A DNA stretch of 64,000 bases from Arenicola marina. Its lineage: Eukaryota; Annelida; Polychaeta; Arenicolidae. The notes below the pieces were generated by a model. That model worked only from the letters and a program-made list of their open reading frames with translations. It was not told the origin of the DNA and searched no databases. Made by a program: the position numbers and the translations under genes. The stretch covers positions 45,916,959-45,980,958 of the forward strand of contig OZ025252.1 of assembly GCA_964019135.1 (NCBI GenBank), written 5' to 3'. Of this stretch, positions 17,985-64,000 are shown in pieces; position 1 is the first letter of the stretch, and every line of letters begins with the position of its first letter.

Positions 17985-18263
17985 GATAAAAAGTTTCAAA
18001 TCTGGTAAATATTTCCCGGTGACCCGCTGTCTCACCTCTAGCGCCTCTTGATAGCGCCCCTGAATGGCGGAGTAAAGCCCCTGAATCGTCGTCTAGCTTC
18101 GCTTTCCCGAAACAGCTGACCACCGCTTCGGACAGCGGGGAAGTGAACAGGTCATGTCGGTACACAGTCCGACACACCCTTCTCTGTCCTCCGTTGTTAG
18201 CGTAGTCCATGGAGCAGTGGCTTCTGGTGCGATCGCTGCATCTGATTAAGAGACGCAGCATTT
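17985..18263 (-). pseudogene. Decayed exon of a second DEG/ENaC-like copy
   Basis: Matches the start of the long channel exon at 52513-54111, including its acceptor (AG then AT-GC-AGCG). Recognisable pieces are 'REGCVGLC' (against 'SESCVGAC'), 'YRHDLFTSPLSEAV' (against 'YQHDLSTIPLSEGV') and 'QEALEVRQRVTGKYLP' (against 'QKALEVRQRVTGRYLP'). The pieces lie in different frames, with a deletion of about 10 bases after the Cys pair and another shift further on, so it cannot code. It is on the same strand as the 51-64 kb gene and probably belongs to the same dead copy as the relic at 8781-9030. Confidence 0.8.
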
Positions 18264-37138: not shown

Positions 37139-40100
37139 TCAATATCGAATAAAGTCCTCATGTCTTGTCGGTTTCCTGCGTTGCCTGGTGGACCGCCTCA
37201 GTTCCGGTGCTCTCTGATCAACTGCACCGCGCTCCACACGCTCCGTACCAGCATCTTCATCTGTCATCATGTCATCATTCACTGGCACGGAATCAGCTCC
37301 CACAGTCAAGGTAGAAGGATTCTCCACCTGTAGCTGTTCCTGTATTCCAGCAACAATCTCGGGTTCCGGAAGTTCTTCTCCCCAGGTATATCGCCCAGGT
37401 CCGCGGTACCGCCACAACCGATTGGCGTGGACGATTTTCGCCTTACTTCGTCCGGCTCGTATGCGGAAAGTCACGTCGGACAGACGATCGACAATGACAT
37501 ACGGCCCCTCCCAGTTGCTCATCAACTTCGGAGATAGACCCTTCTTCCGCCGAGGGTTGTACAGCCAGACATGATCGTCTTTCTTGAAGGTCACTTCACT
37601 GGCCTTCAAGTCATGTCTTCTTTTCATAGTCTCTCCAGAGATCTTCAAGTTCTCGCGCACTTGATGATGTACCTCTCCCATTCGTTCTTGTAGTTCTCGG
37701 ACGTAGCTCGGGATGTCCCTCGGGAACTCCTCATCTGGGGGTCTTCCGGTAAGCAAGTCGACAGGCAAGCGCAATTCTCGCCCAAGCATCAGCTTTGCCG
37801 GTGTATATCCCGTAGATTCATGCTCACATGATCTGTACGCCATCAACAGCGGTGCCAGCTTCTCTTCCCACTCATCCTGTCCAGTTTGACAGTATTTCGC
37901 TAGCTCTTGTCCGAGGGTCCAATTAAACTTCTCAACCATGCCGTCAGATTGCGGTCGTAGAGGAGTTGTTCTCGTCTTCTGGATTCCTAGTAGACTGCAG
38001 CATTCTTTGAAGACAGCAGACTCAAAGTTGCTTCCCTGATCGGAATGCAGTTCATCGGGCATCCCAAATCGCCAGAAGAAATCCAGCAGTGCACTGGCCA
38101 CAGTAGTAGCTTCCTGATTTGGGATTGCGTACGCTTCTGGCCATTTGGTGTAATAGTCCATAGCTACGCAAATGTAGCGACTACCGGAAGTTGAAAGCGG
38201 TAGCGGCCCAGCGATATCCACCGCTACTCTCTCCATTGGGGCTCCAACTTGGTACAACTGCATTGGGGCCCTGCCTTGACGTTGTGGTCCCTTCTTGGCG
38301 CAGCAGATAGTGCAGCATCGGCACCACTCCTCTACGTCACGTCGCATGCCTAACCAATAGAATCTCTGTCGCAAGTGACTGAGCGTCTTCTTGACGCCGA
38401 GATGACCTCCAGATATGTTATTGTGTGCTTCCATCATGACATCGGCTCGAAGGTTCTTCGGCATCACCGTCTGCCAGTACCTGATCACCCCATCTGGCGA
38501 CTCCCACTTCCGCTGGAGAACGCCGTCGTCTAGCCGCAGCATGTCCCATTGCGTCCAATAGTTCTTGGTGTTGGCACTCGTACTCGAAATCTTCTCCCAC
38601 GCTGGTCGGAGGACACTCTGACCAAGGTGGTGGATGATGGGCAGCAAGTCCTTATCCGCTTTCTGCGATGTGGCGATGTTATCTGTTACGTCGTCTGTTA
38701 AAACTGTCTGACAACACACCGTTGCCTCCTTATTGTGGCAGTGGTGACATTCTTCGTCGCAAGGTCGACGGCTCAAGCTGTCGGCATTCGCGTGACTCTT
38801 CCCGGGTCGATACTCGATCTGATAGTCATACTGGTCCATCTTCCCAATCCATCGAGCCAGTTGACCCTCAGGGTTTTTCAGGCTTCGCAGCCAACGCAAC
38901 GCAGCGTGGTCTGTACGGATGGTGAATTGCGCTCCATACAAGTACGGATGGAAGTGACTTAGACTTTTCACTATTGCCAAAAGCTCCTTCCTAGTCACGC
39001 AGTAGTTTTTCTCGGCGTTGCTGAGACCTCGGCTGAAGTAGGCGACTACGTGTTCAGCGCCGTCCTTCCTCTGAGACAGGACGCCGCTGATGCCGGTGTT
39101 GCTTGCGTCACAGTCCAGTACATACGGCTGAGTTGGGTCAGGAAATGGTAATACTGGTGCAGTAGCCAAAGCTTCTTTCAGGAGAGAAAACGCCCGTTTG
39201 CACTCGTTCGACCACACAAAGTCACAGCCTTTCTTCGTTAGATCATGCAGAGGTGCTGCAATAGAAGCAAAGTCCTTCACAAATCTTCTGTAATAAGTAC
39301 AGAGTCCCACAAAACTTCTCACTTCACTCACACACGTGGGAACGGGCCAATTCGTGACGGCTGACACTTTTTCAGGATCAGTGCGGACGCCATTTTCTCC
39401 CACAAGATGTCCAAGGAACGGGACCTCTTTCTGAAACAATTGACACTTCCGGGGATTCAGTTTCAGCTGTGCGGCTCGGAATCTGTCGAGTACTTCAACC
39501 AGTCGTTCTAGTTCTTGTTCGAAACTCACTCCGAACACATTCACATCGTCGAGAAACACAATTGACGTTTTCCAATGAAGACCTTCAAGAATTCGCTCCA
39601 TCAAGCGCTCAAAAGTTGCAGGCGAATTACATAACCCAAACGGCATGACGCGAAACTGCCACAAACCCTGCCCGTAAGAGAAAGCCGTCTTCGACTTGTC
39701 AGCATCGGCCATTTTCACCTGGTGGTAGCCGGACTTCAGATCCAGAGTGCTGAACTATTTAGCTCCAGTTAAAGCGTCCAGAGTGTCGTCCACTCTAGGT
39801 AAAGGATACGAGTCCTTGACTGTCACTTGGTTAAGTGCGCGATAATCCACACAACACCTTGTAGACCCGTCCTTCTTCTTCACCAGGACCACAGCGGATG
39901 ACCATGGGCTACTAGATTTCTCTACTACGTCTTGTTTGACGTAGTCTTCCATCACTTTCTCCATCTCCTGTCGCTGGATTGGGCCCATTCTTCTTGGCGG
40001 TTGTTTGATTGGCGCATGATCACCAGTATTAATGTGGTGCTCTGTCAAGTCCGTGCGTCCAAGGTCATGGTCTCCGGAAGAAAACACATCAGCGTAGGAC

Positions 40101-46899: not shown

Positions 46900-49800
46900 A
46901 TCCTGGAATTGTAGTTCCTGTATTACAGATATTTTTTTTGGAGTAACTGGCGATAATACTTGGTCAATTATGCACATGAATATAAGAAGCCTACCAAAGA
47001 ACTTTCTTAATTTTACATCTTATCTGAGTACGTTATCTCATGAATTCCAGGTCCTTGCCCTTACTGAAAACTGGCATAACGAAAATAATGTTGGTCTTTA
47101 TGGTCTAGAAAACTGTACATCAGTAAATAATTATCGCAGTGATAGAAGAGATGGGGGCGTTACCCTATTTGTAATTTTTTTTCTGTTATTTCGAGTTCGC
47201 GATGATTTAGAAATATTTAATGAGAAACTTGAGACATTGTTTACTGAACTAGATAAATCTACCAACGCGACGGGGAAAACCGTCATTATTGGCGTAATAT
47301 ACAGACCCCCCGATACAAATATAAAGGTGTTTAACGACATATTCCGTGATCTATTGCAATGTATAGATGCGGGAAATTGCATTTATTTAGCGGATGATTT
47401 CAATATTAACTTATTGAACTATGAAACTCATAAGGAAATCTCCTACTTTGCAAACACGATGTTCAGTTTTTCATTGTTTCCTGTTATAAACAAACCTACA
47501 CCTATAATAAAAACATCCACAACCCTAATCGACAATATTTTCACTAACGATATCCAGGTAGTTAATTCCATTCCAGGTATCATGTACACTGATGTAACCG
47601 ATCATTTTCTCTTATTTTTTGTATATCATGCAAGGATATCATGCACACCCATGTGAATGCAAGGCTAACGAGATGTGTAAACGTGAAAAACGTGGAGATA
47701 TTCAAACAAAGGTTAGCTGAAACAGATTGGTCGATGACGCTTGATATGAAGGACACACAGGAAGCATTTTCAGCCCTGCATGGTCGTCTATGTAGTTTAT
47801 TCAATGGAATTTTCCCAATAATAAAAAATGGGTCTAACTATAAGAAACGAAAACCATGGTTGACATCTGGCTTAAAAGCGTCGATCAAGGTTAAAAATAA
47901 GCTTTACCTTAGATTCATGAAGACAAAAGAAGAAAGGATTAAGGAAGAATACAAAGTCTACAAAAATAGTCTGCTAAGGACCACTTCAAAAATCGGATCA
48001 TGCAATATCGTGGTGACTCATATAAATCGTGGAATGTGATTAAAGAACTAATAAATCGCACCAAAAGAAAGCAATTCCAAAATAAATTTGTAATCAGTAG
48101 CTCAGCGGTTACAGATACAGACATACAGACATACAGAATGGATTTAACAAGTTTTTTGCTAACATAGGTTTAACCCTATGCAAGAGTATTCCCCACATCA
48201 AAGATAATTCACCATGCAGCTACACTAAGCAAACAAACAGCGCGAGTTTGTTTCTTGAACCAGTGAATAAAGAAGAACTCCATAACATAGTTTGGAAGCT
48301 GAAAGAAAACTCACCTGGATGGGATTACATAGGATCTAAAATCATTGAGAGTGCATATTTAATTTTAGAAGAACTCCCTGATACATCTTTTAAACTTGTT
48401 ATCAGAAGGTCGATTTTCAAAAGAATTGAAAATATCGTCGTACCCATATATATAGAAGGAGACAAAACCAAATTCAACAACTATAGACCGATATCTATTC
48501 TTTCGACGTTCTCAAAAGGGTTTGAAAAACTGGTGCACAATAGATAAACGACGTTTATTAATAGACACTGCTTGTTGCACGATAACCAATTCGGATTTAT
48601 AACTCAGCACTTTATGACGTCTGCTCTCATACTATTTATGGATAAAATCGCAACAGCAATAGATAAAGGTGAATATGCTTTAGGTGTGTTTCTTGACTTC
48701 TCGAAAGCTTTCGATACAGTAAACCACGATATACTCTTTACTAAGTTAGAAAAATATGGTGTACGAGGAGTGGTGTTAAACTTGATAAAAAGTTACCTTA
48801 CTGGTAGAGTACAATATGTAGAGTATAATGAGGCTATCTTATCTAGACATAGAATTACTTGTGGAGTACCACAAGGATCCACACTGGGACCACTCCTGTT
48901 TCTTTTGTGTATAAATGACGTAACCTTAGTGAGTAAAACATTGTTTTGCATTCTTTTCGCAGCTTATTCGAACTTCCTCGTTACAGGGACAAAATTAGAT
49001 GATATGACCATGATTTTAAATAGGAAATTAGATATTATTGTGCACTGGTTACGTCCAAATAAACTTACACTGAATGTAAATAAAACAAAGTACATGGTAT
49101 TTACATCAAGCTGTAAGAAAATTAAAGGCTCCACTAATGTGGAGGTAATGGGTCAAAGTATTACCAAAGTCACGAAAACGAAATATCGATAGTAACCTAA
49201 TGTGAAAGGAACACGTAGCATATATAAAAGGAAAAATCGCACGAGGCTTAGGCGTAATTACTGAAGCTACAAAGTACTCTAAAACTGAAACCCTCCGTAC
49301 GCTCTACTTTTCATTTAGCCACCCATACATGCTTTATGCTCATGAACTATAGGGAACTGCGTGCCAATCATATCTTTGGCCACTTGTTGTGTTGCAAAAA
49401 AGAGCTGTTAGAATTATTACTGGTTTAGAAAGAAATGCTCATACAGATCCGCTGTTTAAAAAGCTGAATATTGTACCTTTGTTGAATATGGCTGAATATT
49501 GCATGTTGATATTTATGTTCAAACTCAATACAGTTCATCTACCAAAAGTGATTGCTTCTTTATTTATTAATAATTATCAAATACTCGGTTATGGTACTCG
49601 AGGATCTAAGTTATACCACACACCTAAGGCCAGAACAAATTATCTACCGAAGACTGTCAAGTATAGAGGTAGTATAGTGTACAACGAATGGTGCAATAGA
49701 ATTAGTTTCAACGTTAATTCAATAGAAGTGAATAAACGAGACCTCAAATCAGAAATATTTGCCCATCACCCAAATCCATTAAGTGCGACTGACTTACCAT

Positions 49801-51514: not shown

Positions 51515-51699
51515 TCAGACGGGACACCCGTTGTCTGAGTTCCCCAGCATATCAATATGTGCCGAGGTATCCGTCGGTCGTCGCTTGCGACTGGCGTCTC
51601 TCCGGCGGTTCATTATCTTGTAAATCAGCCAATCGAGGACCTCGACGACACTGAGTGCACTTGCACCCAGGAATAAACCCATGTAGCCACCTAGGTCGC
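51515..51699 (-). CDS. DEG/ENaC-like channel, last exon (TM2 and tail)
   Basis: Encodes 'DLGGYMGLFLGASALSVVEV' and 'LDWLIYKI', the pre-TM2 Gly-Gly motif and second membrane helix of the DEG/ENaC family, then a basic tail (NRRRDASRKRRP) and the stop after 'DNGCPV'. The GAS triplet matches the G/S-x-S selectivity filter. The family forms trimeric sodium-selective channels in the plasma membrane, gated by peptides, protons or force. The acceptor is TTCTGCAG at 51700-51707, phase 1 (codon Gly split). The tail has no obvious PDZ-type end. I am confident of the family; the ligand and gating cannot be told. Confidence 0.9.
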
Positions 51700-51892
51700 C
51701 TGCAGAATGCATAAGTGGAACAGTTTCATTTTAGTTTACCTGTTGCAATTTCGTGAAGCTTAAATGTATTATATTATGACAATTAGCTGCTTTGACATAG
51801 CTTGTTATGACATTATATGAGTGATATCACAATTTATTACGTGATCTTAAATTCCGATCATATTTGTATGAGATAAATGCAGCGATGTATAC

Positions 51893-51984
51893 CTCCAAAG
51901 TCTGGCAGATCGTATGCAACCGTCTGTGTGGTTTTCTCCTCTCGCAGTTGGGAAAAGTAGATATCTAACCTCAAAACATTCCGC
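51893..51984 (-). CDS. DEG/ENaC-like channel, pre-TM2 exon
   Basis: 92 bases bounded by TTTCAG and GTATAC. It encodes 'RNVLRLDIYFSQLREEKTTQ' and 'TVAYDLPDFG', the conserved segment that precedes TM2 in DEG/ENaC channels ('..lDIYF..l.ye...q.p.y....'). Phases 2 in and 1 out match both neighbours exactly. Confidence 0.9.
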
Positions 51985-52136
51985 CTGAAATGAAATCCAA
52001 CGTCATTTAAAATTTTGTGTTGAAAAAAAGCCTTTCACGCCGAAACAAATACGAATACCGAACGATCGAACATGAGAGTGCCATAAACTTGGCGCAGACG
52101 ATATCGAATATCCGGCGAAAAACAAAACGCTTTTAC

Positions 52137-52297
52137 CTGATGAACTCGGCATCAATTTGTGCCATATCTCGAAAACGTTGAAGATTTCCTTGTAATTCTT
52201 CAAAACGGTCTTGCAGCTGTAGCCTTTGCTTTAGCAGAAGAGATTGAAATGCGTCCATCTCATCCGAGATACATGTAAAGAAGTCCTCAAGAATATT
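52137..52297 (-). CDS. DEG/ENaC-like channel, helical exon
   Basis: 161 bases between TTTACAG and GTAAAA. It encodes 'NILEDFFTCISDEMDAF' and 'QSLLLKQRLQLQDRFEELQG', strongly helical and amphipathic, directly before the conserved pre-TM2 segment. Phase 0 in, 2 out. It has no counterpart that I know in ordinary family members at this position. Confidence 0.85.
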
Positions 52298-52512
52298 CTG
52301 TAAAGAAAGGGAAAGAAAATCAATGGATTAAATGTTTTACAGAACGGCTTGAGGACAACTGCCCCAGGACAAATCGGACGAAGATTGTGCTGGTGGTATG
52401 ATGTGGAGGAGGCTGGTGTGGGAGTGTAGCCATTGTAAGCGAGGGAAGCCAGGTAGACTATAGCATGCGCTATCATACGCTAACAAATATTGAACGAGGA
52501 AATGGTTATTAC

Positions 52513-54111
52513 CTGGATGCGTTCCTGTGCGCTTGTTTTGAAAAATGACGCCACGTTGGGTATTGTGACGTCACCGTAGTAAGGGTTCTGCCTGGGAATG
52601 ACGCGCTCAGCACTGTCGAGGTTAGCGACAGGCTCTCGCCAGAGGTACAATGCCTTGGCTCTATCAGTAAAGCGGCCACGTGCTTCCGGTTGGCTGAAGT
52701 ACTCTCCTAGTTCTATGACGTCATGGATCCCTGTCATATACGCCGACAGCAGAACATCTTTGAATTCATCAAATTTACTGAGTCTCGGCGCCACATATGA
52801 CCGCTCCAAGTGGCCCTCAATGTCTCGTAGGAGGATCCAGAAGGTCTGATTCACTCGCTCACCTAGGGCTAACTCCATTTCTAACTTGGTCATTTCTAAC
52901 GAGGCGTACTTTCGGTACACCTCCTTTATTTCACGTCGTAGCATTTCTATTTCAGTCAGTTTACTTTCCATTGAGCGCCCGGTCAGTTTCTTGCCACGTG
53001 TATCATCCATTACTTTGTCTCTGTTCGTTTTAATCGTCATGAGAAACGTACGGTAAGCAGACAGGCAATTAATAATAGTTTCTAGTTTGTGTTGATATTG
53101 CAAAATAAATTGATCTGCGTATTTTAAATTGGAGACGTAGTTTGCTGAAACGTTCTCGACATCTATGTCTCGCACTGTATTCGACAAATATGCAGTCGCT
53201 GAAGCCGCTGTTGTTTCTTCCGTTTCATGGTTCCCGTTTTGAAATAAATCAATTTCAGTGTCCTCGTTGCCAATTTTTTGTCGCAAAAGTCCTGTCACAT
53301 TTGGACGAATAAAGTATACAATATCATATTCAGACAGGATATGGTCCCGTGCAAGGTTGCACTGTTCCCGTCGCTCTTTGCCGTAGACAAGAGACGCCGC
53401 TAACTCCACGGCTGCCATCGCGTCTACTTGCACCCAGCGCACAGTGTCACGACGTCTATCGAGCCAGGCTGATGTATACTGCACATTCTTTAGCAATTTT
53501 GTACCGTTCAACATTTTCGCTTGTAATGCGGGCATGCCCGTGTCGATTTCACGTAATGTCTCACGTGCCATATTTACGTCCGCAGGGAGCAAGGCAATGC
53601 TGCGAGTATGGCTTACCACTTCCGACATCAACTTTATCACATCCCGCAGAATGGCCACCAGCGTGTCACGATCCAGCATCAGGTGGGTTTTGTAGGCTTG
53701 CTGGTAGACGTCAATGTCCGCGTACAAAAATGCCATGTCTTCCCATACTTTAGTTTAGCAATACGTCCACGGCGCTGTCGATTCTTGTGAAGAGCGTTTT
53801 TTTTTCGGAAAAGACGTTAAACCTCAGCAGGCTTTCGATATCCTCTAAAGAGTTTTCCACGGCATTGATCTGGTTTAGAACTTCCGGTAAATATCTTCCC
53901 GTGACCCGCTGTCTCACCTCCAATGCCTTTTGGTAGAACTGTGTTAACCCCTGTAGGCCATCCTCCCTGACAGAGCTCATTACCCCTTCGGACAGCGGGA
54001 TAGTGGACAGGTCATGTTGGTACTCGGTGTTGGCGCAGGCGCCGACACAACTTTCGCTGTCCTCTGCAAGCGGCGTCTCCGGAGCAGCAACTTCTGGGAA
54101 GATCGCTTCAT
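52513..54111 (-). CDS. DEG/ENaC-like channel, Cys-rich piece and very long helical insert
   Basis: 1599 bases between CAAACAG (phase 1) and GTAATA (phase 0). It starts 'DEAIFPEVAAPETPLAED', then 'SESCVGACANTEYQHDLSTI', like the C..C..t.Y....S motif of the DEG/ENaC extracellular domain. About 500 mostly helical, Leu/Glu/Arg-rich residues follow ('ALEVRQRVTGRYLP', 'EIEMLRREIKEVYRKYASLE'), where ordinary members have well under 150 before TM2. The length is one base over the codon frame: near 53755 the frame ending 'SAVDVLLN' gives way to 'KVWEDMAFLYADIDVYQQ' by a single extra base. The long second frame alone runs 53736-52480 if the intron is ignored. A decayed paralog of the exon start lies at 17985-18263. 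It is either a pseudogenising allele or a sequence error. Confidence 0.8.
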
Positions 54112-55128
54112 CTGTTTGGGATGCACAAGACTTATCCAGTCAAGCGTAATCACACGCATGACCTTTTCAACGTAAGACGAGAAGGTAATCAGAATACAAC
54201 TAGCTAATTTTATTCATGCATGGTACACGCGCCGTACATGGAATTTAATAGAGTTGGTTATGTTTTGGAACAGGCCATTATTATAGGCAAGCTCCGAAGC
54301 AACACCTGCCACCGTGAGATCTCTCCATCTTAGCAGAGCCACATATTAATTGAGTCATTGAGACATATGATTGTTGCCAGGGCGTCTGACGCCCCGACAG
54401 AAGAAGACATTCTACATATACAGTTCATTTCGTGTCCTTTTATGTAAACTATATAAATTTCGACACCATACCTACCGCAAGGCTTCGCACTAATAATATT
54501 CATATTTGCCTCAGTGTTATTCCTATTGAACGTACATGAACCTACCTTGTATTACGCATGACAGATATGATTGCATGTTACATTTGGGTTCACCACCTGT
54601 AAATATATTACAAACAAGTGAAAACGATATCCAACGAGGGTGACAATGAGGTCAGGCAAGGAGGCCATCGTTTAATCACCAGCTTGCGGGCTGTGGAAAA
54701 TGTGGAGGTACTATCGAGGCGCGGATCCTACGGGAAACTTGCAACCGGGAGCGGAGGGGGGTGCTGGTGAGATTGTGCAGGACGAATAATGTACTTATGC
54801 CTCATCAGCTCATGTCATTTTATCATTTGTCATTGACGCCAATAGCACTTGCGATAATATAATGTTTATTGTTGGATTTCATATACCGACTTTGAATAAA
54901 ACTTTATCCTATCTGTAACCTTATCTCTTGTCCTTTATCGTCTTATCTGGACTGGTTGGCGCCGAGTGAATCAATCGGTGTACTTCATGGAAATAAATGC
55001 ACAACAAATGTGTTTAAGATATATTTACGCTCAATGTGAGCAGACTAGAACATATACCCGACCATTCATGTGAAGGTTGTCACAGTGACACCGCCGTTCA
55101 AGAGCTTCAGTCTCGCGTTGTTGGATAC

Positions 55129-55155
55129 AACGAGAGTACGTGTAACTCTCGTTGC
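55129..55155. repeat. Small hairpin in the intron
   Basis: CAACGAGAG, a 9-base loop, then CTCTCGTTG; a perfect 9-base stem. Confidence 0.7.
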
Positions 55156-56559
55156 GGAAGTGCGAGAGGTCTTTGGTTCCACACGTGCCGTAAGGAGGAG
55201 GCAGAAAGATAATCTGTCGAGAAAATATTTATTATCAAAATATTGTAATGCCAAGAAAGATTGTTAAACGCTATAAATCGGCAGTGGTGAGAAAGGCGTG
55301 CGTGCGTGACTTAATATAGGTGATCGCGGAATGTTGGCGGTCGCCGTATACGGGTACTATTTGCGAAATATTGATACAAGTATACATTACAGTTTTGTAA
55401 AACATGATACGAATTGACCTGATGGGGTACCTTGTAAAATTGATCACTTAAGCTTTGTGGGATAAAGGCAACCATTTGCGCAATTTGACAGCTGGCTATG
55501 GTACGGTGGGGTAGTTGTGGGTACGTACGTTACTGAGTGCCAGACGTGCGAGCACATGTTGTCCCGGGCCTAGATTAAAGATTCACCTTCCTCATCAAGG
55601 GCACGTCAACTTGTTTGTTGAATAACACCTGTCAAGGAAAATATCGACCTAAAGTAGACACACCAAGAAACAAAATATGATTGAATCACCGGGGACAAAA
55701 ATTATCGGAAAATGAAAATATTTTTTTTATATTGTAATGGTGATACATTGCACCTTCAATATCGTAAAATGACAGCAACAACATTATCATTCTGCGAAAT
55801 AAACAAGATTAAACGTTTTTTCCGTCTTATTCGATGTACGCTTCGTACGATGACCTGATGTCTACATCATTCAAATTCGCAACCCTAAGTATATATTTCA
55901 ACATAATTAGTTTTCCGAAACCGTTAACCTCTCCTTTGAGGGTGTTAGTCTTGGGAATCTATCAATATTTATACCACGGACGAAAAGGATAATTGTAAGA
56001 GCAACGCAGGCTGATCCAGGTGATTCCCACTTACAGGCCCACTTTAATACAAAGTGTACCCCATTTAAGATGTGATCCCCATTGGAGGACCCCCACTCTG
56101 ACACATTCCCCTTCTGGGTGCGATCTTATGGAGAAACTCACTCCCCTGTCGTAAGATACACGGAGAGCTGATACCTTGATGGCCAAGACATGGTTATGCC
56201 GAATGCATAATGCATTTTGACAATACCTTGACACCAGATACTGCGGCAATACCAGGAATATACTGGTAGTCGGCAATGTCCATCCAGAGCTGGAGTCCCG
56301 AATCAACTCCTATAACACACCGACTTGTGGTTATATAAACACCGACCATATAAACAGCAGCATGGCGCACGGCCCGCGTGTTCCTGGTGAGCCCTAAATT
56401 GGCGTCTATGGGCAACCTGATGAACCTAATAGCATAATTTGGTCAGATACGTTCTTACAAGCCTAAATTATGACTGCAATACCCACATGTCAGGGTGTAG
56501 GCCCCATTTAATGAACTACTGGAACCCGGCCAACGCGTAATTGTATCGAAGTATTATTA

Positions 56560-56850
56560 TTATTTTATTATTATTATTGGGTTTCTTTAGCGCCAAATCC
56601 GTGAATCGGTTCAAAGACGCTGTAAAAAAAAGTAATCCGCATAATTTACACAATAAATATTTTTGCTGAAATAAGAACTACATGCACAACACTAATAACC
56701 TTCATAAATAAATTTAGTAAACAAGTATGTTTTAAGCCCTGTTTGAACTGACTAAATGTATCTAAAAGGCAGGGCGTTCCACAACATTGGAGCATTTACA
56801 GCAAAGACACGTCTGCCAAGTACTAAAAGCACCCAGTAGCAGGTGAGCAA
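56560..56850. repeat. Decayed interspersed repeat with AGCGCC...GACGCTGT core
   Basis: (TTATTA)n is followed by 'gggtttctttagcgccaaat' and 'tcggttcaaagacgctgta', then 'aaggcagggcgttccacaac' and 'gcatttacagcaaagacac'. This word order is familiar to me from widely spread repeats of aquatic animals. The family name is not certain. Confidence 0.5.
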
Positions 56851-57009
56851 CGATATGATTTCCGCTTCAGTATCGTTAGCAGCATTCATAAGCACGGAAG
56901 ACAGTTCCATAGCTGAGCTCACCCGTCGATGTAGCTTGCAGGGTAGTTTGGTTGTTGCCGTTGAATGTGAGACAGTTTCCCATATCGGTTACCGTCGTCA
57001 CCGTCATAT

Positions 57010-57069
57010 TATGATGGCAGGAAGTCACAAGAACAAGTGTCAAGACTGTAACGTCTGAACATTCAGGCT
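57010..57069. mobile_element. Single end of the AGCCTGAA-type MITE
   Basis: The reverse complement of the end matches 43901-43945 (AGCCTGAATGTTCAGACG, then 'cacttgttcttgtgact'). The opposite end was not found. Confidence 0.6.
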
Positions 57070-57640
57070 ATGGGTGCCTCAACCCTATAGCCTTTGGCCC
57101 TGGTAAATACCTCTCTGACCACGCCCATAAATGGAGCAAGGCACTGCATATTTATTCTGTAAGAACTTTTAACTTGAGCCACCGGTCGACTATTTCTGAT
57201 TTTAGGCCTGGTGAGCGTCATGGCTCTCACCTTTCCTCCATTTACCGGGGTGGTGAGAGAGGCATGTACCAGGGCTATATAGCCCTGTCCCATGCCTCCC
57301 CCCCAATTATTTAGTGGTGTCTGTGTGGGGAGGTTGAAGACCACATACCTTTTTGATACCCAGGAAAACTTCCAATGGCTCAGTGAAAAATCAGGGAATT
57401 GTTTTTTTGTTTCATGTGGGAACTCTTTACTACGGTATAGTCTTGTTTTCAGGCTATACTGTTTATAACATTCTCTTTGGTATTTATTTGGCTTCCTGCA
57501 TAATGTACTGGGGTAATAATAAATGTACTACAAAGTATCGTAAGATCGCCTTCTAACCTTTTAGCACCCATGTCCTTTAATGTTAAACAGCATTGGTGAA
57601 TGATAATTTACTAAGACGATAAGTGTATCTTTTCTTGCAG
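57070..57640. other. No gene seen
   Basis: A 93-codon minus-strand frame (57063-57344) resembles no family and is partly made of repeat sequence. Confidence 0.4.
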
Positions 57641-57643
57641 ATC

Positions 57644-57733
57644 AAGTCAGGAGAGAATTTACTGGCAATGACGTAAAAGAAATTTTCATGTTAATGCTAG
57701 AGAAGATCAGCAACGTTGTAAAGGCTGGATAAT
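57644..57733 (+). CDS. Possible terminal exon on the plus strand
   Basis: A good acceptor (TTTTCTTGCAG) is followed by a frame reading 'QVRREFTGNDVKEIFMLMLE' and 'KISNVVKAG', ending TAA. No upstream exon was identified and no family is recognised. It could be the last exon of a small nested gene or of a transposon-carried gene. Confidence 0.3.
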
Positions 57734-58428
57734 AATAAGAAAAACTGAAGGATCTACTTGTTTTACAAATTAAAATGAATTTATTTGTATAAAAGATTGT
57801 TTATATATGTTATGTGCATTGAATAGTGGTTGTTTTAAAGTTGAGTATTAGTTATGTAGTAGATGTGAAGTACTGCAGGGTAGTACATCTCATTTTGAGG
57901 TGGAATTTGTATCTGTTACAAAAGAAGAGAAAATACATCATCAATTCAATTATAACAGTTGTTTCCTGTATATGAGTTAGACTACCTGTATAGGTAGACA
58001 TTATTTGTAATAATCAAATAATAAGCTGGTTTTTATGTCATCTATGTACTGTGTGATTGTGCATATAATGACTGGACAAAATTCCACAATGGCATTTTTT
58101 TCAATTCCTACTTTTGTCCTATTTTTTCTGTATTTCCATTCCTACTTTTGTCCTACTTTTTCATGAGGGTGTGCTGGACAGCCTGAATATATATATATGG
58201 TTAGAATGTGTATACTATATAAATGTTTTGGAATTTGTGTCATTTATGTCACAGGGAGTTAATTATGTGTATATAATGTGCGTATGTCACATGTTCACAA
58301 ACTGCATCTTTTTATTGCAATACATATATATGAAACTGGATTGTAAATCTTTGTATTCTTTATTCTTGTATTTTTCAGACTCTGGCATTATATATATATA
58401 TCATAGCATTATATATTGCTATATGTAA
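57734..58428. other. No gene seen
   Basis: AT-rich intron sequence, with a duplicated 'attcctacttttgtccta' segment near 58106-58160. Confidence 0.4.
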
Positions 58429-58429
58429 T

Positions 58430-58920
58430 GGTGATTAGTACCATAATATACCATGGTATCCATGTAATAAAGTACCATGGTAAATTAGCATACCCTGGTA
58501 CTTGGTATACCATGGTAATTTACCATGGTATACCTGTTTCAAAATACCTAGGTAAATGTGCTTTACCATGGTATATTACCATGGTATTATACCATGATAC
58601 TCTACCATGGTATACCTGTTTCAAAATACCTAGGTAAATTTGTTTTTACCATGGTATTATACCATGATACTCTACCATGGTATACCTGTTTCAAAATACC
58701 TAGGTAAATGTGTTTTTACCATGGTATTATACCATGATACTCTACCATGGTATACCTGTTTCAAAATACCTAGGTAAACGTGTTTTTACCATGGTATTCT
58801 ACCATATTCCGCATATGTAACTAACCGTCATTGCTTTCAACATGGTATTCTACCATGGTATACCTGTTTCAAAATACCTAGGTAAATTTATCATGGTATA
58901 CCATGGTTATCTCATGGTAT
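58430..58920. repeat. CCATGGTA-type array with 70-bp period
   Basis: Starts with irregular ATACCATGG units, then about five copies of a 70-base unit 'taccatggtatacctgtttc' plus 'aaaatacctaggtaaa' and 'accatggtattataccatga'. Each unit has two palindromes, TACCATGGTA and TACCTAGGTA. A 38-40-base foreign segment sits at 58803-58842. Confidence 0.9.
58803..58842. repeat. 40-bp inverted copy inserted in the CCATGG array
   Basis: Perfect reverse complement of 59227-59266 (40 of 40). It interrupts the array unit between 'accat' and 'catgg'. Confidence 0.95.
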
Positions 58921-59226
58921 TTTTTCGTAAGGGTCATGTCATGATTTTAAATTGTTATGGTTTGATTAGTGCAAAAACGATCTATTCTTTCAATAAAACG
59001 GTAGACTGCACACGTTTATGTGACGTAGTACAGATATATGCCAACTAGCAATCAATTACTGTCAAGCAAAAAACTTTGTTCTGATATATAAACCATTCAG
59101 GCTTAAGTAAATGCTTTCTGAAATGTGCATGCTAATCTTTCATTTTAGCCTATTAAGATAATTTTTATAAATTGGAGGTACATATATGTAAAAATAAATT
59201 TAAGAAGAAAGGAAATACACTTTTAC

Positions 59227-59266
59227 TGTTGAAAGCAATGACGGTTAGTTACATATGCGGAATATG
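59227..59266. repeat. 40-bp inverted partner
   Basis: Perfect reverse complement of 58803-58842. It lies outside the array in non-repetitive intron, 57 bases from the MAM exon at 59323, so this is probably the source copy. Confidence 0.95.
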
Positions 59267-59322
59267 AGAATAAGTATCTTGATATTCATGGTGCGGTTGA
59301 TGCTTATGTATGGGCACTTTAC

Positions 59323-59659
59323 CTGTTTCTGTGCATGGATCCTTGTCTATCCTGATGTCGTCTATGGCTAGGACTCCAGGGCCGCCTACTGCCTTGATGC
59401 TCAACGGATACTTTCCAGGGGGCAGAGGCACCGTCATGTCCGACCACTGATACGGCTGAACAAACTCCGGAGCCCAAAAGAAAAAAATGTTGATGGTCTC
59501 TCCACCCGTAATGTTCACAATAAAATCGCATTCTGTGCAGAAGATCTTGTAGCGTAAACACGACCCCCCCCCCCGGAACTGTTTGGTTGATGCTTTCCAT
59601 TCTGGAGAAGGTGTAAGACGGGGTAGACACCTGCATGTGACAATCACCGGTAGCGCCAT
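59323..59659 (-). CDS. MAM domain 3, C-terminal exon
   Basis: Acceptor TTCTAACATCAG, donor CAG/GTAAAG, phases 1 and 1. It encodes 'GATGDCHMQVSTPSYTFSRM' then, in a shifted frame, 'SCLRYKIFCTEC', 'WSDMTVPLPPGKYPLSIKAV' and the MAM ending 'GVLAIDDIRIDKDPC'. The shift falls at a run of eleven C (plus strand, 59564-59574): one base fewer would keep frame, and the exon length is one base over. This is either a homopolymer sequencing error or a real lesion. MAM domains are extracellular adhesion modules. Confidence 0.8.
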
Positions 59660-60215
59660 CTGATGTTAGAAAATACCGCAAAGTTGAAGAACGGGACCAA
59701 TTGGTTGGATTATAAAAACGCGCAAAACGCAACCGATGATAAACAGAATGACAAGCACACGATGCTACAGATAATGCAGATCATAAATACGTAGGTGAGT
59801 TCAGACTTGGACTAATATCGAACAATAACGATTATGTATTGCTACTTTTTAAATCTTTTTATCGAATAAAAATCTCTAGTCAATTAAAACACAATTGCAG
59901 GGTATACAGAAAAGAAAAATTAGCATTCACATTCAAAAAAACTGTAACATAGGCATATAATGGTAAACCAGGCTAAAACGGTATTTAGGGCTTAACAGTT
60001 GACCGTACGGTGGGAGCCATGTGAACTACGTCACAGATTTGTGTGTATTTCATCGGTTTATTGTGACATTTCTTTTAATGCTGAGCAGGGCCCAGGCAAT
60101 ATATTTTGGTGATCCTTAAGTGATAAGAATAAATAATTCAGACATTAAAATGTAGCAATGTAACTATTGATCGTGAAGTGAATTTGACTTCTGCCACTGT
60201 TAACAACATGCTCAC

Positions 60216-60314
60216 CACAGGCCCGTGTCCAGTGTTGTGTTGCATGTGATGTCTCGTCAACATAGCCACATTGGTCAGGGTTATTGAAGTCACAGTTCAT
60301 CGTGCCTTTGGTCA
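60216..60314 (-). CDS. MAM domain 3, N-terminal exon
   Basis: 99 bases between TTTCAG and GTGAGC, phases 1 and 1. It encodes 'VTKGTMNCDFNNPDQCGYVD' and 'ETSHATQHWTRAC', the start of a MAM domain (C-F-x3-x-C-G-Y...W.R). The phases join it to the exons on both sides. Confidence 0.85.
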
Positions 60315-60530
60315 CTGAAACCATTATGTGAGTCCACATCTCAATTTTTTAATTACTTCAATTTTTTCGACCTTTTATTTCTTTAAATCAGCATGTGGCT
60401 TAAGAGGTATGATTTGTTACGATCCGCGTCTGCTTATCTAGGAATGCGATAACTACGGTAGGAAAAAAACCATATGGATTGGCTTTTATCTAGTCATTCT
60501 CATGTCACGACATATTACATAAATGGTTAC

Positions 60531-60831
60531 CCTTTTCGCGACAAGTGCCCTTGTCAAAGTTGACATTGTCAATGAAGGCTTGGTAGGTGGGGTGTTGTCC
60601 AGAGATAGCCTGAAATACAACGGCCTTCTCTCCATATTCCTGGATCGTGAGGTGCATGGTGTGCCAGGACCGCCCCAGACCATGACGAGGCTCCATGTCC
60701 TGACCGAGTCCCGGGCTCTGGGCCACCTCCGGGCCGGGTTGGATGTCTTGTTTCTGGCTCCCCACAGTATGGCCAACGCCCATTATAATTGAATCTTGTG
60801 ATTTGCCCAGGAAGCGTTTGCAAAGGGCAAC
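60531..60831 (-). CDS. MAM domain 2, C-terminal exon
   Basis: 301 bases, phases 0 and 1; acceptor TTGATTGAAG, donor GTAACC. Continues the MAM fold: 'IIMGVGHTVGSQKQDI', 'HGLGRSWHTMHLTIQEYG', 'EKAVVFQAISGQ' and the ending 'AFIDNVNFDKGTC'. The frame is open throughout. The overlapping alternative frames in the same place have no domain pattern. Confidence 0.85.
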
Positions 60832-61571
60832 CTTCAATCAAAAGACATGCAAGTGATGGTAAAGTGCTCTTACGGGCCTTGTCATAATATATATAACCCG
60901 TACAAAAATGGGTTTTCAGGTGAAAGCTAGTTAGAATTCAGTTAGATACTTCAGCTAAATAATTTATCATGTAAATTAGTTTTCCAGTGCTCAAATTTAA
61001 ACTGTTGAATGCGCTATCTGCCTTGTGGTGGCTCATTGCATGCCGCTCGGTTTCGCGTGCGATGTTCACCAAGATTCTGTTAAGTCCTTAATTCTAACTA
61101 ATTACTGACTATGCATACTTGTAAGTTCCTGATTTCAACAAGCTTTGTGAACCTAAATTTCAACTCTTTTCTAACTGAAGGGTAATTTACATATCTCCGG
61201 GCCAGGTGAATACTATTTAAAAAATAACTGTTCAGTTTTCTGCTGAGGATATACCATAAGTCCTAAGTAAGGTAACTTTTTTTTCGTAAGGAAATGGCGC
61301 GAAACAAGTTGTAAGAGAGACTGTCACACAATTTTGTCTAATCCAAAGATTTCGTATCGTCAATTCTCAGCAGCAAAACGACACGCAAGTCAGGGTGACG
61401 AGATACATTATTAGTGAAGTGTAAATACCTGCATACAGGTAAAAAAACCTTCTAAGAATTTATTGCAACTTCATAGTTATTCATAACTGACCGCCAGTTG
61501 CAGGTGCTTGACTGAATTATAACAACAATACTCGATCAAGCTCCTGACCACAATCTCTACAGGTAACTGAC

Positions 61572-61735
61572 CTCTAACGTGTCTTCGACCCATAGGTCAA
61601 AGGACAAACAATAACTTCCGTCCAGTCGGACCCATGGAGACACAAGACGCCCCTGACGCACAGACATCATGGACACTGTGGCGTTGTTGCTGTAGATCAC
61701 CTGGTCTCCGTGGTAGGACAGACCAACTGCGTAAT
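61572..61735 (-). CDS. MAM domain 2, middle exon
   Basis: 164 bases, phases 1 and 0; acceptor ACATTTCCAG, donor GTCAGT. Encodes 'DYAVGLSYHGDQVIYSNNAT', 'GRLVSPWVRLDG' and 'SYCLSFDLWVEDTLE', the D.t.G.y ... SP ... C.sF segment of a MAM domain. It resumes the MAM fold exactly where the exon at 63193-63339 stopped, after the nested CUB module. Confidence 0.85.
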
Positions 61736-62101
61736 CTGGAAATGTTAATGGCATGCATTACTATTGATCAACGTAACCACTGATTATAGGTAGGTAAATG
61801 TTAATTGATGCATAAATATGAGCGTACTTTTGTCATGAGAAGGTGATGTTTACATTGGCACGCGCGTTATTATGCTCCATATGTTAAAAAAATTAAAGTG
61901 GAGGTGAAATCAAATGCAAAATTGAGTTACATCGGAACATATTGTATATCCATTTAACAGAACAAGTAAACCAGTAAAGCAGTTGTCCCTTAGCTATTGT
62001 TATTGCATACATGTTACCGTCCGGCTGTATTAAATGATAAACCCACCAAAAATGTATATCATGTTAGGTATATATATTTGGCCTTCGGGGTGAAGTAATA
62101 C

Positions 62102-62297
62102 CATGTCCTTCAACGAGACTGGTGTGATACTCCACAAGAAATCCCCTGTTAACTTGATAAAAATCCGTGTGAAGACACAAGGTAACGTTTCCGTCCTTGA
62201 ATGTAAGCGGGCCCGGGGTCAGAAACCCACAGAAGCAGGATTCGTTACGGTTGCATTGCTGGGAACCACAAAGTCCAGACTGGGCGGAAGCAGACAC
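62102..62297 (-). CDS. CUB domain, C-terminal exon
   Basis: 196 bases, phases 0 and 1; acceptor TTATGCAG, donor GTATTA. Encodes 'VSASAQSGLCGSQQ', 'TPGPLTFKDGNVTLCLHTDF' and 'NRGFLVEYHTS', the second half of a CUB domain (CG...sgn.l.l...sd......GF.veY), with extra cysteines ('CNRNESCFC'). Confidence 0.8.
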
Positions 62298-62616
62298 CTG
62301 CATAATGACGAATGCAAAACAATTCATAATGAAGTAAAAAAATGAACGTTAAAAAATACCAGTAGGATATATTTTCTTTGCATAACTGATTGTTGTTTAG
62401 AATGCTGCGTCGGGTTTCTGACCCATTGTTCTACTTCGCATATTAATCATTGATAATTTCACGTGGATTCCAATGAATCAACTAGATGTAATTGAAAAAT
62501 GTAGTTAACGCGCATATTTAGATTTTCGATTTTTTAATGATCAAAACGACCCTGCTCTTTGATACTTGTTAAAGCGCGAATGCGCTATATGATTCAATCA
62601 TAGAATTAATACAAAC

Positions 62617-62804
62617 CTGTAAGAAGTCATAGTCGCAATGGGATTCAAACTCCAGCTCCATATACGCAAACGAGAGTATAACTTGCGCCTTGGGGGGTTG
62701 GACGATGACGTAGGAACAGTCCATGTGATCGTTGTAGGCGTGAGGGAATCCGGAGGAGGCGATGGAACCACTGACGTCATAGTAGTATGTCTCACCTTTG
62801 CACA
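62617..62804 (-). CDS. CUB domain, N-terminal exon
   Basis: 188 bases, phases 1 and 0; acceptor ACACGTAG, donor CAG/GTTTGT. Encodes 'CKGETYYYDVSGSIASSGFP', 'HAYNDHMDCSYVIVQPPKAQ' and 'FAYMELEFESHCDYDFLQ', a textbook CUB first half (G.i.S.gfP..Y...m.C.w.i...p....i.l.f....le....CdyDfl). Confidence 0.9.
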
Positions 62805-63192
62805 CTACGTGTATAACACAACGTTGCATTTTAAGTCAAAAGTCGATGTATTCGAGATTGATATACGAGACTACAAGTACATACATTTACGCACGCAGTC
62901 GCTACAGTGTCATATAAATCAAACACTCCAATTCCGTGCTTACAAAACGCATCAAATGAATCGCAACTGCGGGGCCCAAAAATCCATTCGTATATCTATA
63001 ATTGCTGCCGAAATGGTGGGTAATTAAACGCCCCTATGATTATTTCTATTTCTGTGTCTACTATTGCTGGGGCGGAATGGTTTTGTTCCCTTCGTTTTCG
63101 TTTTGATATCTCCGTATCATTTCCGTTGAACTCAATCTATACTTATGAGGTACGATAATATTACCGGTATTGAGGGAAGATCGATAACTTAC

Positions 63193-63339
63193 CGGGACTT
63201 CGGTAAGAAGGAGCCGATAAGGCATTTTCTATGTTGTCCTTTGAGATCTGCTTCCACTTCATGAAAGCAGAATCCGTCTCCACCACATAGTCACACAAAC
63301 CTTCGTCGAAACTACAGTCCGCAGTCGCGACGTCACTTT
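63193..63339 (-). CDS. MAM domain 2, N-terminal exon
   Basis: 147 bases, phases 1 and 1; acceptor ATTTCAAG, donor CCCG/GTAAGT. Encodes 'ADCSFDEGLCDYVVETDSAF' then 'MKWKQISKDN' and 'SAPSYRSP', a standard MAM start. The next MAM residues ('DYAVGLSY') are not in the next exon but two exons further on, beyond the CUB module. Confidence 0.85.
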
Positions 63340-63637
63340 CTTGAAATAGTAACGAGAAATTAATATTATTCTATATAGACGTACTAGAAGCATACATAAG
63401 TTTTCACTTATCCAGTTACTTTTTCGAACCAGAGACATAATTTCGTATTGCAAACATTCTTCTTTACAGTTTGTAAACATATTTTATCACCGAAGCTCAG
63501 TACAGAGCTGGAATATGTCACTTGAATACTGAATAGCGTTATGTGTTGGGTGCAAAAGTGCAAAATCAAACCTATTTAAACCACTGATGGATGGCTTTAT
63601 AATGTTTCACAGAGCGAGTGTGTACTTGGTTACTTGC

Positions 63638-64000
63638 CGGAAGTCTCTTTGGGTTGGCAGGCGTTCTGGGTAACAATGACGTCATCGAGTTTTATGTATG
63701 CCTCCTACGCGTCCCCCATGACAGCCTCAAAGCGCAGAGCGTGACCACCGGCTGGCATACAGACGTCGTGTTTTACCCAACTCTTGGTAGGAATGTCGGG
63801 CGGTTGGTAGGCCGTGTGTGCCAGCCACAAATCTCCCCCAGTGCCATTCGCCTCTTTAACTCGCTGCAGCCGACGCAGTTGCGTGTGGATTCCAGTCTCA
63901 TTATCTACCCTGCTGACCACTAGCTGGGTCAAAGTATCGCAGTAAGCGGAGTGAACGATGGCCTTGAATGTAACGAAGGTCGGTTGAGAGAAGTTGTGAG
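63638..64000 (-). CDS. MAM domain 1, C-terminal part (runs off the window), with in-frame stop
   Basis: Encodes 'FSQPTFVTFKAIVHSAYCDT', 'VKHDVCMPAGGHALRFEAVM' and the MAM ending 'EAYIKLDDVIVTQNAC'. A TAG at 63705-63707 sits where most MAM domains have an aromatic or other residue before 'EAYIKLDD'; TGG to TAG would be the simplest origin. The donor is GC (TTCCG/GCAAGT), a recognised minor donor, phase 1, which fits the next exon. The upstream part of the gene lies outside the window. Confidence 0.75.

Follow-up and report, generated by a model that had tools for sequence, protein, structure and literature searches.

DEG/ENaC channels are known mainly as compact trimers that are opened by protons, by peptides or, in worms, by force acting through separate tether proteins. 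The finger influences gating in ENaC and ASIC, and a short protease-cleaved segment of the finger region of ENaC, the GRIP element, modulates gating. Mixtures of LDLa, CUB and MAM domains are found in ectodomains of the enteropeptidase and matriptase type, where they stand on a membrane protein with a serine protease. The closest described case of a DEG/ENaC channel carrying extra modules in the same polypeptide is that of the nematode EGAS channels, characterized as 'EGF plus ASC domain' (PMC10424705). The extracellular domain of ASICs comprises about 300 residues, according to a phylogenetic study of bilaterian ASICs (PMC9949801). Here we describe a locus of Arenicola marina, in a window of 64,000 nucleotides (the whole stretch of DNA that was analysed, C5:45916959-45980958), in which exons for MAM and CUB domains and exons for a DEG/ENaC channel occur on the same strand. 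With a probability of about 0.88 for the anatomy, they would belong to one gene that fuses the channel with the modules, of which the window contains a broken copy (copy A). Among the articles listed by searches of the open-access literature there was no report of a DEG/ENaC channel with MAM, CUB, Kringle or PAN domains; an earlier interpretation of the window from its letters (the sequence-only reading) knew of no described DEG/ENaC subunit with MAM-CUB-MAM modules. One article (PMC9545775) mentions degenerin and CUB and treats the two apart.

The idea of a single polypeptide, already advanced by the sequence-only reading, is supported by two paralogs of A that have a single open frame and by the exon order at other loci of the same genome (867 Mb in 762 contigs). 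Coordinates given without a contig are in window scale, values above 64000 continuing along the contig, and the exon models of A, B and G are predictions for which splicing was read from genomic sequence alone. Copy B (C5:46027260-46062414, window scale 110302-145456), which lies on the strand opposite to A and whose exons were modelled manually one at a time, consists of 29 exons encoding 2093 residues, with no internal stop from the first found exon to the stop codon; its introns are GT-AG except for one GC-AG. Copy G (C5:35962526-35985946), a diverged paralog modelled from separately fetched stretches and leaving out E1, consists of 28 exons encoding 2050 residues, again with no internal stops, with all introns GT-AG and the same phases as B. 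The phases of B were a condition of the fit of G, so that the phase match alone is not independent; the splice sites of G coincided exactly with the projected positions at 23 of 26 exon starts and at all 26 exon ends (E25 left out). B and G share 66.6% identity over 2036 aligned residues.

The predicted protein begins with a His-Gly motif (A and B), followed by the first transmembrane segment (TM1), the first palm strand (FPAVTICNQN), the segment of exon E2b, and then a probable PAN domain, MAM1, Kringle, LDLa, MAM2, MAM3 with the CUB domain nested in it, and MAM4. After these modules come the finger, palm and thumb, a cysteine pair (CVGAC), a long insert, the last palm strand and the second transmembrane segment (TM2). 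As judged by the exon order in B, G and the marker loci described below, the modules would be extracellular, between TM1 and TM2, as previously proposed. Their place within this domain had been set directly before the Cys-rich (thumb) segment and has to be moved, since they lie between the exons of TM1 and the first palm strand and those of the finger. The module list given at that time, MAM-CUB-MAM, is present and is incomplete: PAN, Kringle, LDLa, further MAM and the long insert before TM2 must be added.

The assignment of the channel part is backed by several tests. The Pfam ASC family matched B at 4.6e-49 in four stretches (earlier 25-exon model) and G at 5.1e-58 in three. An exon with the motif TTWHGVKYIF, located before TM1 in A and B, aligns with the His-Gly region of ASIC1, and the GxS selectivity motif, which we take to be a mark of DEG/ENaC TM2, appears as GLFLGAS in A, B and G. 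The finger motif C-x-W/F-x-G-x-x-C and the thumb cysteine pattern, presumably also marks of the family, were found in B and G (CQWAGSLC and CEWAGSPC, plus the thumb exon); A has no finger start. In the PDB sequence search, the channel part of B matched ASIC1 structures at 1.3e-24. The likeness to these best matches, the ASIC1 and ASIC5 structures, covers the His-Gly region, TM1, the first palm strand, the finger end and the thumb cysteine pattern, but neither the modules nor the long insert is matched by any part of the aligned ASIC sequences.

For the modules, MAM (PF00629, cut-off 26.4 bits) was detected in G at 3.7e-35 (121.5 bits, three stretches) and in B at 57.7 bits for MAM1, 31.9 bits for MAM2 and 45.4 bits (9.9e-12) for MAM3 minus CUB. 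CUB (PF00431, cut-off 21.4 bits) reached 58.6 bits in B and 55.8 bits (6.6e-15) in G. Kringle (PF00051, cut-off 34.3 bits) and LDLa (PF00057, cut-off 24.1 bits) were recognized in G at 36.2 and 26.2 bits, respectively. PAN_1 (PF00024, cut-off 21.4 bits) scored 21.8 bits with the G exon alone and was not listed when the complete models of B (E<=0.1) and G (E<=1) were scanned. No EGF family appeared in the Pfam scans of B at E<=0.1 or of G at E<=1. B and G resemble EGAS in having a DEG/ENaC channel and extra modules in one polypeptide; they differ in that the EGAS modules are EGF-like, whereas here they are PAN, MAM, Kringle, LDLa and CUB, accompanied by a long unmatched insert. The mixture of modules is like that of enteropeptidase- and matriptase-type proteins, which bear a serine protease where B and G bear a channel. 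With GRIP the shared trait is an element added in the finger region, although GRIP is a short cleaved segment and here it is a string of independent modules.

The long insert (the remainder of E22 and E23, exons at 54111-52137 in the window; 588 residues in B) is, after the module cassette, the second part specific to this lineage and precedes the last palm strand and TM2, a position that we assume to be the one where ASICs have the knuckle. It showed no Pfam family above cut-off in the scans of the window open reading frames, B and G, and no PDB sequence match at E<=1 for the 415 residues tested; Wtap and MinE were considered as families for it and rejected, their Pfam matches being under cut-off. 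An AlphaFold model of 415 residues, made with no alignment, had a mean predicted local distance difference test score (pLDDT) of 36.7 and at most a helical tendency, and on this model the insert is probably helical.

To evaluate selection, nonsynonymous (dN) and synonymous (dS) divergence were compared between B and G. The pooled modules gave a dN of 0.19 and a dS of 0.69 (ratio 0.27), the region from finger to thumb a ratio of 0.25, and the insert 0.33; among single segments, LDLa had the lowest ratio (0.12), and Kringle (0.48) and TM1 plus E2b (0.49) the highest. All 47 module cysteines of B are conserved in G. Additionally, ten further copies of the insert exon, among the best-scoring of 24 matches, are all open over at least 536 codons, with dN/dS values against B of 0.22-0.43. 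Given this purifying selection and these open copies, at least some members of the family make use of the fused protein.

The modules from PAN to MAM4, PAN-MAM-Kringle-LDLa-MAM-MAM(CUB)-MAM, form a cassette of about 1,020 residues encoded by fifteen exons (E3-E17). In B and G, this cassette has phase 1 at both ends and is located between E2b, which follows TM1 and the first palm strand, and the exons of the finger. The modules are delimited by phase-1 introns, phase-0 introns being present solely inside CUB and MAM3. Modules bounded by phase-1 introns are a signature of exon shuffling, and because such introns stand at its bounds, the cassette looks as if it had been shuffled into the ion channel. 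The same symmetry (E2b out in phase 1, E17b in with phase 1, in B and G) would allow the cassette to be skipped as a unit, so that module-free and module-bearing channels would both be made by alternative splicing. We consider this unlikely, while granting it some real weight, given that it would require the joint skipping of fifteen exons in a row (E3-E17) and that the modules are under purifying selection and, therefore, used.

The extent of the family was determined by mapping marker exons across the genome with queries from B or the window; the resulting lists contain best candidates, and the counts are lower bounds. Each time the marker order runs backwards the grouping opens another gene, so the groups are ordered by construction, and the evidence lies in the 17 cases in which a single group accommodates nine markers. 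At least 17 loci on C5, A included, have the nine markers in the same order and strand (TM1-PAN-Kringle-LDLa-MAM2-CUB-MAM4-thumb-insert). Other C5 loci include one that is without PAN only, one with the first five markers only and one lone TM1. Three loci on C14 have eight markers in order, with no Kringle detected; identity to B is 29-59% for their module and TM1 markers, and identity to B or window queries is 31-47% for their thumb and insert markers. A C19 locus (TM1-Kringle-CUB-thumb-insert) and a C3 locus (TM1 and insert only) gave weak scores (E 5.5e-6 to 6.9e-4). The insert domain was found in the copies on both C5 and C14, with weak matches on C19 and C3. As predicted from these markers, the family is tandem-duplicated and has about 20 copies, further loci being partial.

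These loci also bear on the alternative that the exons form two genes, in which a MAM/CUB gene for a secreted or membrane protein is nested in or adjoins a DEG/ENaC gene and is spliced separately. The window by itself has no TM1, and the phase symmetry (1-1) of the cassette leaves the channel in frame without the modules, both points in favour of this alternative. However, the modules stand between an upstream TM1 and a downstream thumb at the 17 nine-marker C5 loci and the three eight-marker C14 loci, and the maintenance of the marker order through so many copies is not what would be expected of two neighbouring genes with unrelated fates. Besides, the intron preceding the cassette measures only 247 nucleotides in B and 353 in G, and no ATG exon common to B and G was found within it; module and channel exons are also under similar constraint. 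Two separate genes are thus a very improbable explanation.

Some observations weigh against a single fused gene. Splicing was deduced rather than observed, no first exon with the start methionine was found by exon modelling in B or G, and the acceptors of E15 and E17b of B look weak, E17b having two candidate starts in the same phase. The frame that continues past the MAM4 donor soon stops (end of the open reading frame at 59249), as in any intron it may, and no search for a terminal exon after MAM4 was made. Three domains scored under their Pfam cut-offs: MAM4 alone (23.6 bits) and, just under, the Kringle (33.8 bits) and LDLa (22.3 bits) of B, the last two in the earlier 25-exon model. Since the cassette is 1-1, skipping all the modules would maintain the frame, and a module-free isoform is possible. 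Finally, lower-ranked matches to the insert include shorter frames (181-497 residues), and part of the family is thus decaying.

Intact members of the family would form DEG/ENaC trimers at the cell surface, and their pore would be normal, as family knowledge and the presence of the His-Gly motif and GAS filter suggest. Everything between TM1 and TM2 would be extracellular, giving three module arms at the finger, one large arm per subunit. Each arm may bind an extracellular partner (matrix, a cell-surface protein, a protease or a secreted ligand), and binding, pull or cleavage might be relayed via the finger and thumb to the gate, so that the cation channel would be receptor- or tether-gated. 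Since PAN, MAM, Kringle, LDLa and CUB are all modules that bind, the arm would most likely serve to recognize an extracellular partner that alters gating. We tentatively propose, at slightly less than even odds, that binding of a partner changes gating, the arm acting as a receptor or as a force tether. A slightly less than even chance is also given to the broader proposal that these proteins represent a new class of receptor channel: DEG/ENaC trimers with an exon-shuffled arm at the finger and a long, probably helical knuckle domain, present in about 20 copies and under selection, in which the modules would gate the pore directly as a sensor of ligand, matrix tether or cell contact. A subfamily with adhesion-type modules in the channel itself would offer a direct means of studying how binding outside the cell is coupled to the DEG/ENaC gate, and the cassette, bounded by phase-1 introns, is also a clear case of apparent exon shuffling into an ion channel.

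In the window itself, the exon models and the Pfam ASC match (25.6 bits) bear out the twelve exons first noticed, which are on the minus strand (as are all exons of A given below) and in the order stated then: eight MAM/CUB exons (E10-E17, 64000-59323) followed by four 3' channel exons (E22-E25, 54111-51515). The 5.2 kb between both groups (54112-59322) had been read as empty, and it contains five channel exons, E18, E19, E19b, E20 (thumb) and E21. The direct join from 59323 to 54111, which had been put forward as a phase-compatible junction, is ruled out by these channel exons, which also intervene in the modelled relatives; as the junction is unreal there, its 1-to-1 phase match carries no weight.

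The first group starts with the second exon of MAM2 (E10, 63638-64000, extending to 64066 beyond the window), which has an in-frame TAG at 63707-63705 in A and a GC donor in A and B. The first part of MAM3 (E11, 63193-63339; phases 1-1) shows 93% nucleotide identity to B. The CUB domain is encoded by E12 (first half, 62617-62804), with a Pfam CUB match of 4.9e-13 on the open reading frame, and E13 (second half, 62102-62297), the complete CUB of B reaching 9e-16. MAM3 resumes past CUB in E14 (61572-61735), the corresponding B domain minus CUB matching at the 9.9e-12 given above, and ends in E15 (60531-60831; Pfam MAM 2.5e-05 on the open reading frame, 24.6 bits versus the cut-off of 26.4). MAM4 is predicted by the exon model in E16 (first part, 60216-60314) and E17 (remainder, 59323-59659), the latter with its frame shifted in A by four additional nucleotides in a G run at 59574.

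The interval 57025-59322 contains short-unit repeats, and the finger exons E17b and E17c and the start of E18 are absent from it; E17b and E17c are present in B, G and L042, and the E18 start in B and G. A short-unit repeat rich in ACCATGGTA was spotted by eye at 58440-58930, where the paralogs have the two finger exons. What is left of E18 (56923-57024), without its acceptor and first 17 nucleotides, encodes the finger end with the GNCLTFN motif. It is followed by the palm strand exon E19 (56227-56309; GLQLWMDIADYQYIP), in which 28 of 28 residues are identical to B, and by the palm exon E19b (55529-55628), with one extra nucleotide at 55584 in A. The thumb exon E20 (55063-55213; LPPPYGTCG..YSRC..ERRCHC) has a B counterpart homologous to the ASIC1 thumb, and the modelled E21 (54546-54596; GEPKCNMQSYLSC) contributes thumb cysteines. 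E22 (52513-54111) encodes the CVGAC cysteine pair and then most of the long, probably helical insert, with one extra nucleotide at 53758 in A, and the exon model places the insert end in E23 (52137-52297) and the last palm strand in E24 (51893-51984; NVLRLDIYFSQL). E25 (51515-51699) contains the pre-TM2 region, TM2 with the GAS selectivity motif (GLFLGAS), the C-tail and the stop codon, and is the exon that matches Pfam ASC (7.6e-06, 25.6 bits versus a cut-off of 23.6).

The upstream exons of A emerged when the contig sequence beyond 64000 was compared with DEG/ENaC genes of this genome that read in a single frame. The TM1 exon, for which the sequence-only reading had pointed beyond 64000, lies on the same strand (70243-70076), as does the cytosolic His-Gly exon (76884-76803). 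The exon model of A adds a PAN-like exon (69486-69220), damaged MAM exons (67915-66962), the Kringle exon (66703-66461), the LDLa exon (66196-66080) and the MAM2a exon (64566-64453). These upstream exons and those of the window are, on sequence grounds, one gene of a tandem-duplicated DEG/ENaC subfamily.

Relative to B, this copy has accumulated many lesions. Upstream, the E2b acceptor is changed, half of E4 and its donor are lost, five nucleotides are missing from E5 and 14 from E6, and the donor of the Kringle exon is altered to GC. In the window, the TAG of E10 occurs in the context GCGTAG where B has ACGAAA, and the frame is shifted at 59574 (+4), 55584 (+1) and 53758 (+1), in addition to the loss of the finger exons and of the E18 acceptor. 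The divergence between A and B (dN 0.068, dS 0.156, ratio about 0.44 over 1871 of the 2042 codons of the earlier B model) still departs from neutrality, suggesting that the decay is recent. Some lesions are homopolymer-like (the G run at 59574 and the single nucleotides at 55584 and 53758), and this, like the non-neutral ratio, could be taken to indicate that A is an intact gene with assembly errors. Nevertheless, exon losses of 5, 14 and 57 nucleotides, the absence of two finger exons and the loss of two acceptors (E2b and E18) are untypical of read errors, as is a TAG that differs from the B codon at two places. Intactness of A is accordingly a highly doubtful option, and A is, by its predicted exons, a pseudogene, a decayed member of the family.

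Several entries were left out of the family count: stray or partial MAM2 and MAM4 rows (C5:35999210, 35999434, 36001721, 36012477, 36012554, 36014977, 36094262-36094677, 35927395 and 45976520), thumb and E22 rows (C5:36010164, 36016564, 45900498 and 45934955), all E22-start rows, second-half CUB rows, two insert pieces (35825895 and 36235160) and a short TM1 piece (C5:46092536). The count likewise disregards rows for Kringle, LDLa, CUB, TM1 and the thumb on C2, C4, C6, C7, C9, C11, C12, C13, C18 and C20, those on C14 that fall outside its three loci, and those at C5:29021067 and 32040625; the split insert rows at 35918985 and 35919351 were merged. For L042, whose stretch begins past E14 and E15, the rows of these two exons are spurious and the pooled value was set aside. 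The excluded row at C5:45934955-45935215 (17997-18257, minus strand) is a piece of the E22 region that has decayed and contains two stops, perhaps the remnant of another copy between the two minus-strand members.

Other features were noted in passing. In B, a unit of about 74 bases containing the MAM1 exon end and splice donor is repeated in tandem several times at 131003-131300 (L015). The mitochondrial COX1 of this assembly has 13 TGA codons within the matched frame and is open under NCBI table 5, with 25 ATA, 5 AGA and no AGG codons; these probably stand at Met and Ser positions, and the pattern is in keeping with an invertebrate. The His-Gly exon occurs two further times on the minus strand of the window, at 6383-6285 and 13982-13884 (SRSFSQETTWHGVKYIF and a variant), in the region upstream of an adjacent paralog that has its TM1 about 1 kb before the start of the window. 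Frames resembling retroelement RNase H and reverse transcriptase were recognized by eye, in chance matches, at 38843-39079 (minus strand) and 48359-48541 (plus strand). Other large DEG/ENaC clusters are present at C6:8.39-8.76 Mb and at C13:11.06-11.24, 16.8 and 24.4-24.7 Mb, and several of those on C6 match the ASC profile over its full length within a single open frame of the usual size.

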